From: Malaciobacter pacificus
Lineage (GTDB): Bacteria; Campylobacterota; Campylobacteria; Campylobacterales; Arcobacteraceae
NCBI RefSeq assembly: GCF_004214795.1
Contig: NZ_CP035928.1
Span: forward strand, 1-64,000
DNA: 64,000 nucleotides
Direction: 5' to 3'
The notes below the pieces were generated by a model. The model saw only the letters and a program-made list of their open reading frames with translations. It did no database searches and was not told where the DNA came from. Shown piece after piece: positions 40,522-41,945 of this stretch. A program made the position numbers and the translations under genes. The stretch's first letter is position 1. Each line of letters starts with the position of its first letter.

Positions 40522-41553
40522 ATGGATAGAAAGATTATATATAACCCAGATTCAAAAGAGACACTAAATGAAAGAAGAGTATTTGGTGGAAATAGTGATG
40601 GTATGATTAACTTCACTAGAATGAAATACGAATGGGCATTAAAATTATGGGATACAATGGAAGCAAATACTTGGTTCCCAAAAGAAGTACAAATGACAGC
40701 TGATGCTAAGGATTATAAATATCTAAGCCCAGCTGAAAAAAGAATGTATGACTTAGTACTTTCTCAATTAATCTTTATGGATTCATTACAAACAAATAAC
40801 CTAATGGATAACATCAATCCATATATAACAGCACCTGAAATTAATGCTTGTCTTTCAAGACAATCTTATGAAGAGGCTAATCACTCAAAATCATACGCAG
40901 TAATGGTAGAGTCAATCTCTGATAATACAAATGAGATTTATGATATGTGGAAAACTGATGCTAAGTTAAGAGAGAAAAATACTTACATCGCTGATACATA
41001 TAAGAATTTAACTGGTGATGATGATGGGAACATCTCTGATACTAAGATTTTATTAGCTATGTTTGCTAACCAAATCTTAGAAGGATTATACTTCTATGCT
41101 GGATTTGCAGCTATGTATGCACTTGGAAAATCAGGTAAGATGCTGGGAAGTTCACAAATGATTAGATTTATTCAAAGAGATGAAGTAACTCACTTACTAT
41201 TATTTCAAAATATGATTAACTCAACTAGAAAAGAAAGACCAGATTTATTTACTCCTGAATTAGAACAAACTGTAAGAGGTATGTTTAGAAAAGCAGTTGA
41301 TTTAGAAGCTTCTTGGGGAGCCTATATCACTCAAGGACAAATCTTAGGTTTCACAGATGGAATTATTAGACAATACATCGAATACCTAGCAGATAAAAGA
41401 CTTGATGCAGTAGGATACAAACCAGAATATAATGTAAAACACCCTATTCCATGGGTTGATGGATATGCATCATTTAATGACCAAAGAACGAATTTCTTTG
41501 AAGGGAATGTTGTAAATTATAGTAAAGGTTCTATTGACTTTGATGATTTTTAG
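40522..41553 (+). CDS. nrdB: Class I ribonucleotide reductase beta subunit
   Basis: NrdB holds the di-iron/tyrosyl radical cofactor used by NrdA. The 343-residue protein has [15 protein letters not shown] (near residue 116) and [13 protein letters not shown] (near 227) with the metal-ligand Glu and His residues. It ends in [10 protein letters not shown], the acidic tail that docks to NrdA. The gap after nrdA is 76 bp with a T/A-only hairpin around 40456-40475. Confidence 0.96.
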
Positions 41554-41600
41554 GACTTAGATATGGGTTCTAAAAATAAGAAGACAGAAATTACAACAAA

Positions 41601-41709
41601 TTAAGAGGCGGGAGGGAACCTCCCCGCATCTTTCCTGAACTGGTTACGCCCCGCTTAAAGCCTATGAGTTCAAGGCATATGGAATCCCATTTTTCCACCT
41701 CTCTTAATC
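41601..41709. ncRNA. GC-rich structured RNA candidate, family unknown
   Basis: A GC-rich island of about 109 nt in an otherwise AT-rich gap. Its ends pair (TTAAGAG with CTCTTAA). Inside are a strong hairpin GCGGGAGG/CCTCCCCGC with GAA loop, a long-range helix TGAACT (41635-41640)/AGTTCA, and a small hairpin ATGG/CCAT before TTTTT. Either strand is possible; the plus strand has the T5 run at 41690-41694. A 6S RNA is one idea, but the length is short. It is not SRP RNA, 5S rRNA or a tRNA. It could also be the 3' UTR structure of nrdB. Confidence 0.5.
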
Positions 41710-41819
41710 TAGTATTTTGATTATCGTATAAAAAATATAAATTATTGTTTAATATTCATTTTAAACCAAAGATTCATATTTAATTTTATATAATTTATCA
41801 AAATTTATTTAGGAAAAAC

Positions 41820-41945
41820 ATGAGAAATATTTTAATAATAGGTTTAATAGTAGTAGCAATGGGATATATGTTTTCATTGCTTTTTGATAGATATGAAGCG
41901 GCTGTTGAGCAACAAAACACACAAAAAGAACTACAACAAAAGTAA
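41820..41945 (+). CDS. 41-residue single-pass membrane peptide
   Basis: A short gene with AGGAAAAAC ribosome site and ATG at 41820. The peptide has one hydrophobic helix (NILIIGLIVVAMGYMFSLLF, residues 3-22) and a charged Gln/Glu-rich tail (EAAVEQQNTQKELQQK). No known family. It stops 66 bp before trpB. Coding is supported by the good ribosome site and membrane-peptide pattern, not by homology. Confidence 0.6.
   Translation: MRNILIIGLIVVAMGYMFSLLFDRYEAAVEQQNTQKELQQK

Follow-up and report, generated by a model that had tools for sequence, protein, structure and literature searches.

A skipping-rope RNA beside a nuclease gene remnant in Malaciobacter pacificus points to a putative RNA antitoxin module with BECR-fold nucleases

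Introduction

The window analyzed here, a 64,000-nt stretch of the Malaciobacter pacificus contig NZ_CP035928.1, carries nrdB (40522-41553, plus strand) and, ahead of a tryptophan-synthase-beta-like gene, a 41-aa ORF for a single-pass membrane peptide (41820-41945, plus strand); between the two lies a short GC-rich island. An initial annotation named these neighbors correctly, set the limits of the island at 41601-41709, and described a structured RNA with closed ends and an internal hairpin, which was suggested to be either a 6S-like housekeeping RNA or a new RNA family. Which RNA this is, what it does, and why it should lie at this place are the questions raised by the locus.

Identity, limits, and strand of the RNA

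Positions 41600-41708 of the window, read on the minus strand, matched the Rfam family RF02924 (skipping-rope) over the full model (1-80) with 43.4 bits, above the cut-off of 36.7 (gathering score), and no other Rfam family matched the window RNA at E values up to 1. The limits given in the initial annotation agree with those of this match to within one base, and its description of a structured, conserved RNA that is neither SRP, 5S, nor tRNA was borne out; the suggestion of a new family was not, because Rfam already names the RNA, and a clear named match of this kind had been listed beforehand as refuting novelty of the family. On R1, a covariance model of the Campylobacterota RNAs, the window RNA scored 128 bits, a score that no other copy exceeds, and a genome scan gave one copy in the window's genome. 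The contrast with an AT-rich background was likewise real, with a G+C content of 0.51 over 41600-41699, compared with ∼0.30 in the surroundings and 0.14 just beyond.

The minus-strand fold reached −39.3 kcal/mol, compared with −31.2 ± 3.6 in dinucleotide shuffles (z −2.2; 5/200 shuffles as good), and the plus-strand fold gave a z of −2.0 by the same measure, so close that fold energy alone leaves the strand undecided. The RNA was therefore placed on the minus strand on the basis of the Rfam match, the covariance model score, and the promoters seen upstream of its homologs (below); this strand is opposite to that of both flanking genes, nrdB and the 41-aa peptide ORF.

Secondary structure, covariation, and promoters

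The closing helix, P1, pairs AUUAAGAG (41701..41708, minus strand) with CUCUUAAU (41600..41607, minus strand), so that the closed ends of the island correspond to a real 8-bp helix; in eight relatives, 98.4% of its cells were paired, with double changes at two pairs. The 3′ strand of P1 runs into a U-rich stretch and is terminator-like, and terminator-like scan matches were obtained on the minus strand. The internal hairpin of the initial annotation held up as real structure, which actually comprises three hairpin arms plus a pseudoknot, with covariation in relatives. These arms, all on the minus strand, are P2 (GUGGAA/UUCCAU, 41679..41698), with a loop that contains GGGA (41685-41688), one side of the pseudoknot; P3 (CCU-GAACU/AGUUC-AGG, 41634..41675), which contains an inner variable hairpin, has five pairs changed on both sides, and is longer in the window RNA than in the Rfam consensus; and P4 (GCGGG/CCCGC, 41608..41627), which is 100% paired, with three pairs changed on both sides, and whose loop contains UCCC (41614-41617), the other side of the pseudoknot. 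The GGGA/UCCC pseudoknot is present in the window RNA and is kept with covariation in relatives; Rfam 14 also shows a pseudoknot for the family, a likeness at the level of presence.

Across eight Campylobacterota sequences, P1, P2, P3, P4, and the pseudoknot were paired in 96.5% of cells, with 25 double-changed cells, so the check for conserved pairing in relatives came out in favor of the annotated structure. No shuffle reached the covariation score of these eight sequences, and RNAalifold independently yielded the same main helices, including the P3 arm. A phage and Firmicutes set of 90 distinct RNAs gave a covariation score of 0.71, compared with 0.18 in shuffles, and in this set, the pseudoknot was 99.6% paired with 38 double-changed cells. 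The pseudoknot had been left out of the model used to align these 90 RNAs and is the cleaner test of covariation, because the nested pairs were fitted to that model.

A GATAAT at 41720..41725 (minus strand) is a candidate −10 box of the window RNA, read from the sequence; relatives carry TATAAT- or TACAAT-like boxes at the same distance, and a generic promoter scan returned no promoter at this position. By eye, TTGACA-17-TACAAT or TATAAT promoters were recognized upstream of the RNA at three loci (L056, L057, and L062). A −10-like box precedes the RNA at 64 of 89 loci, compared with 23.5 in shuffles; both a −35 and a −10 box were present at only 9 of the 89, so a −35 box is not general.

Distribution and mobility

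Of 104 genomes in the window's family, only 4 gave a match to the Rfam model, as did 3 of 397 genomes in a phylum sample, one of these last being a doubtful 25-bit match (G196, L042) that was unconvincing by eye and was taken as chance. Close DNA homologs were recovered from four further genomes, for a total of about eight, mostly at unrelated loci and beside a nuclease gene or a remnant of one; most of the aligned Campylobacterota copies went unreported by the Rfam model in the family scan. The RNA lies behind nrdB in three genomes (G000, G010, and G094) and elsewhere in the others, where alignment (A1) showed a conserved RNA between unrelated flanks, which is the pattern of a mobile element and not of a housekeeping RNA. 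Thus, while the size, G+C content, and closed, rod-like shape of the RNA had spoken for a housekeeping role, 6S-like or other, there is now next to no chance of one: Rfam gives skipping-rope only and no 6S match, and the RNA is patchy and non-syntenic, missing from most relatives and shifting between loci.

Several candidate matches outside the Campylobacterota were rejected. DNA matches in Bacillus phage PumA1 and Synechococcus S-SSM5 were not skipping-rope, and six viral loci from the first pattern scan, which used the Campylobacterota form, received no support from Rfam or R1. The cyanophage S-SSM5 does carry a strong manA RNA (RF01745, 169 bits) near gp23 (L050:1138-1331, plus strand). A Firmicutes model of the RNA (R2) reached only 2 of 12 Campylobacterota RNA sources (31 bits), and beyond these two, the link between Campylobacterota and Firmicutes RNAs comes from the Rfam model, for the sources within its reach.

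A convergent nuclease gene in Campylobacterota and its remnant in the window

In five relatives, a gene for a protein of ∼130 aa is convergent with the RNA, its stop codon lying near or within the RNA 3′ end. A protein profile built from these five proteins (A2) retrieved seven strong genes in the window's family and two more in the phylum sample. All nine of these intact nuclease genes had a convergent RNA beside them, with an overlap or a gap of a few nucleotides between the 3′ ends; for four of the nine, the gene was first recovered from the protein profile only, and a match to the RNA model (60-96 bits) was subsequently obtained directly beside each. Three RNAs lack an adjoining intact nuclease gene: the window RNA, that of G023, and one of a pair in G044. 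Of this pair, located at L057:1350-1497 (plus strand) and L041:6626-6737 (minus strand), one RNA belongs to a complete module and the other is an orphan, with a large restriction-modification-like gene a few hundred nucleotides away.

In the window, the nuclease (toxin) gene is represented by a remnant, MGSKNKKTEITTN* (41563..41604, plus strand), from whose interior ∼350 nt are missing: its first 16 nt are those of the G094 gene start, and its last part resembles the gene ends of G010 and G094. The A2 profile search found no intact or other copy of the nuclease gene in the window's genome. Read from these sequence comparisons, the toxin gene has been internally deleted and the intact RNA (41600..41708, minus strand) is an orphan; a toxin remnant beside an intact RNA is what would be expected if only the toxin is costly.

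PBECR3 nucleases beside the RNA in Firmicutes and their phages

The Rfam consensus identified copies of the RNA in Enterocloster phages and in one Streptococcus phage satellite, and a pattern derived from those copies recovered 41 IMG/VR loci, nearly all with the RNA motifs. At 13 of these 41 loci, an ORF of 114-167 aa ended a few tens of nucleotides upstream of the RNA on the same strand, and the five such ORFs tested were PBECR3 (PF18812; 68-86 bits, Pfam cut-off 30). Searching from the protein instead, 23 PBECR3 loci were obtained from IMG/VR, and all 19 testable ones had the RNA a short way downstream, on the same strand (in the other four, the contig ends 27 nt past the match), and the RNA was likewise downstream of PBECR3 in 73 of 80 loci from species genomes; of the seven without it, three are close to a contig end and four (L140, L160, L174, and L183) lack it despite the contig continuing. 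In Firmicutes genomes and prophages, the RNA lies roughly 30-140 nt downstream of PBECR3, a proximity for which chance can practically be discounted in genomes of 2-5 Mb.

For 250 sampled Lachnospiraceae genomes, the RNA model and PF18812 were run as separate searches; PF18812 was above its cut-off in 25 genomes, and the RNA was immediately downstream in 27 of 30 fetched PBECR3 loci. Conversely, by our own count, PBECR3 was beside 19 of the 37 RNA matches in this sample; about half of the Lachnospiraceae and about two thirds of the viral RNA matches had no adjacent PBECR3, which means that the RNA may also stand by itself or have a different partner. In the Streptococcus phages phiJH1301-1 and phiZJ20091101-3, the order is lysin, "spbA", and RNA, followed in phiJH1301-1 by a putative att site.

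Some loci depart from the simple pair. A second, diverged skipping-rope-like RNA (36-40 bits) stands in tandem behind PBECR3 and the first RNA at L186:3018-3098, L128:2062-2142, and L109:2045-2126. In Lachnospiraceae, diverged RNA subfamilies occur without PBECR3 at L232, L235, and L236, at L223, L249, and L250, and at L246-L248; in L246, a PBECR2-like gene (22.5 bits, below cut-off) is just upstream of the RNA.

Predicted fold of the two partner proteins

The partner proteins tested had no match in NCBIfam or PADLOC and only weak ones in PHROGs, and the Campylobacterota protein had no match in IMG/VR, plasmids, or phages. Compared with PBECR3, the best Pfam score of a Campylobacterota protein was 13.1 bits (E 0.095, one member), below the curated cut-off and extending over nearly the full profile, and the hhalign probability was 0.3%. 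The AlphaFold model of the Campylobacterota protein (pLDDT 87.8) consists of helices followed by a four-stranded sheet, and its six top structure rows were BrnT, an Escherichia coli colicin-type ribonuclease, a Salmonella toxin, and CdiA toxins, at Z 5.5-6.7, with a drop to 4.3 in the following row. Both this model and that of the PBECR3 partner (pLDDT 92) matched BrnT (Z 6.7 and 6.8), CdiA-NC101, 7m5f, and RelE, and the two share the same order and spacing of elements, with secondary structure at nearly equal positions. A Z below 8 can reflect merely a common arrangement, and what supports the fold is the agreement among the listed structures (Z 5-7) and not any single score; on this footing, both partners are predicted to have the RelE/BrnT/CdiA-type RNase toxin fold (BECR). 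The Campylobacterota partner may be a diverged relative of PBECR3, an assignment in which the sequence link is weak and which relies on predicted fold, place, and size.

RNAs without PBECR3 or with other toxins

No PBECR3 was found in 26 RNA-carrying phage or viral records, many of them fragments; PF18812 does match in the Lachnospiraceae sample. The RNA core of an Enterocloster phage was 95.5% identical over 67 columns to the PBECR3-linked RNA of Anaerobutyricum hallii, with the differences confined to one hairpin loop. By analogy with the pseudo-ToxI RNAs of escape phages (PMC5086642), the pattern suggests that RNA-only phages carry decoys. Phage RNAs with a long P3 arm were observed behind an HU-like gene in three records in which no PBECR3 was found (L085, L087, and L104), and in L085 and L104, a PhoH/PIN-like gene comes next after the RNA. 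In the satellite phage Javan99, an SpF41 sRNA (RF02435) lies ∼40 nt upstream of an orphan skipping-rope RNA (L063:3854-3956, plus strand).

At two loci, L080:1000-1570 (minus strand) and L228 (minus strand), the RNA lies ∼20 nt downstream of a CptN toxin (NF047359, 121 and 138 bits). A two-copy, 46-nt CptI-like array is retained upstream at L080, and no such repeats are present at L228. CptN was accordingly rejected as the usual partner of the RNA, and given the array, the RNA behind the CptN of L080 is probably not its only antitoxin. At L101:700-1400 (minus strand), an RNA of the S. suis type directly follows a TenpN-like toxin, whose 75 bits fall short of the cut-off of 90, at the place where the relatives L067, L090, and L105 have PBECR3. 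P1 and P2 of this RNA seem to be damaged, as would fit a replacement of the toxin. It is conceivable, though we put it forward only tentatively, that skipping-rope is a widespread RNA antitoxin of BECR nucleases, perhaps one that swaps toxins, since it also occurs behind CptN and TenpN-like genes, and that RNA-only phages and satellites use the RNA as a decoy against host modules.

Proposed function and alternative explanations

We consider it probable that skipping-rope RNA is the protein-binding antitoxin of a small, stand-alone, BECR-fold (RelE/barnase-like) endoribonuclease, the two forming a two-part module. In Firmicutes and their phages, the nuclease would be PBECR3, with a diverged relative taking its place in Campylobacterota, and the compact, pseudoknotted, P1-closed RNA, probably made from its own promoter, would bind the nuclease and block its active site. 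Disturbed transcription, as in a phage infection, would let the RNA decay, and the freed nuclease would then cut RNA and stop growth. Such a module would spread horizontally, with prophages as a frequent vehicle; the copy in the window's genome would have settled behind nrdB and lost its toxin through internal deletion, leaving an orphan RNA that may still protect against incoming copies of the module. A toxin neutralized by RNA fits the combination of a small RNase with a compact, pseudoknotted RNA that has a promoter of its own, the mobility of the two, and the fact that the RNase is the first to be lost, and the opposite orientations in the two groups, taken with the missing antisense match, point to binding between RNA and protein. 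Observed here are the identity and structure of the RNA, its linkage to the nuclease in two arrangements, the fold predicted for the partners, and the gene remnant, and it is from these that toxicity, binding, neutralization, and a role of phage infection are inferred.

The linkage data would look the same if the RNA were tied to the nuclease in a role other than that of inhibitor, namely as a guide, cofactor, activator, or preferred substrate, within an RNA-directed effector against phage or plasmid RNA. The strong conservation of its structure would suit such a role, as would the proposal that PBECR domains target CRISPR or phage RNAs (PMC5512222). We nevertheless judge this unlikely, because no variable, guide-like segment is visible besides the P3 arm, because RNA orphans without a nuclease (in the window, G023, G044, and phages) are unexpected for a mere cofactor, and because the nuclease without the RNA is rare. 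Still harder to sustain is control of toxin expression, whether as a type I-like antisense RNA or by terminating or stabilizing the mRNA at its 3′ end. This would account for an RNA immediately 3′ of the gene in Firmicutes and for a closing helix with a U-rich tail that is terminator-like in some loci; in Campylobacterota, however, the RNA is on the opposite strand, has its own promoter, and overlaps the gene by only a few nucleotides, and the convergent order there rules out a mere 3′ UTR. Furthermore, a terminator needs neither a pseudoknot nor invariant loop letters, and the antisense form was rejected, as complementarity of the RNA to toxin start regions was no better than in shuffled sequences (mean z −0.11, 69 loci).

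There is also little prospect of an unconnected small RNA of phages or prophages that only happens to sit beside nucleases in accessory-gene spots near attachment sites, an idea to which the many phage copies without PBECR3 and the prophage cargo positions beside lysin lend themselves. The place and strand of the RNA relative to the nuclease, when searched from the protein, are fixed across phages and bacterial genera, a spacing of some tens of nucleotides in 26 of 26 contiguous pairs would not survive drift of cargo, and the linkage recurs in another phylum in a different orientation. A protein-binding antitoxin thus remains the favored reading of the RNA.

Comparison with known systems

The window RNA belongs to RF02924 by its score above the gathering cut-off, and its relatives share P1, P2, P3, P4, and the loop-loop pseudoknot, the Campylobacterota copies differing by a much longer P3 arm. 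The family was reportedly first described by Weinberg et al. in 2017, and that description may already note a gene association. In the literature found, as far as its accessible parts extend, the family appears as a pseudoknot example, in a phage-RNA listing, and in training data, and no function is given. The Firmicutes partner belongs by Pfam to PBECR3 (PF18812), among the phage BECR nucleases of polyvalent proteins. The accessible portion of PMC5512222 notes solo PBECR domains in phages, takes PBECR domains to be injected effectors or to target mRNA or CRISPR RNA, and, unlike the loci described here, describes no associated RNA. No earlier description of a pairing between this RNA and a BECR nuclease was found in the literature searched, which was mostly without subscription full texts, so one may exist elsewhere.

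Among toxin-antitoxin systems, the closest in layout are those of type III (ToxIN, CptIN, and TenpIN), in which, as here, mobile DNA carries a small RNase together with an adjacent small, pseudoknotted RNA, and the RNA orphans in phages resemble the pseudo-ToxI escape RNAs (PMC5086642). Type III systems are defined by a tandem-repeat antitoxin RNA upstream of the toxin with a terminator between them (PMC5086642), whereas the RNA here is mostly single copy, without tandem repeats, and is 3′ of the toxin or convergent with it, not upstream behind a shared promoter. The toxin also differs, being BECR/PBECR3 and not ToxN-like: neither PBECR3 nor the Campylobacterota proteins matched ToxN, CptIN, or TenpIN, and their structural neighbors are BECR. 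Neutralization by direct RNA binding, a trait of type III systems, would by analogy extend to the present module.

A direct precedent is the abiF motif RNA (RF03085, RCd22) of Clostridioides difficile, which is likewise conserved and adjoins a gene and which, as an antitoxin, binds and neutralizes the prophage RNase AbiF (PMC12373285). Compared by description, that system differs in its HEPN-type toxin and in an upstream RNA with two abiF motifs. If the proposed function is correct, RNA antitoxins would reach beyond ToxN-like, AbiF, and similar toxins to nucleases of the RelE/barnase fold, among the largest toxin folds, and orphan RNAs on phages would be ready-made counter-defense RNAs. An RNA family without a function in the literature found thereby gains a specific partner and role that can be tested: the window RNA is of a known family, and what is new is the link to a BECR nuclease, with which the RNA would form an antitoxin module, a variant of the RNA-antitoxin principle.
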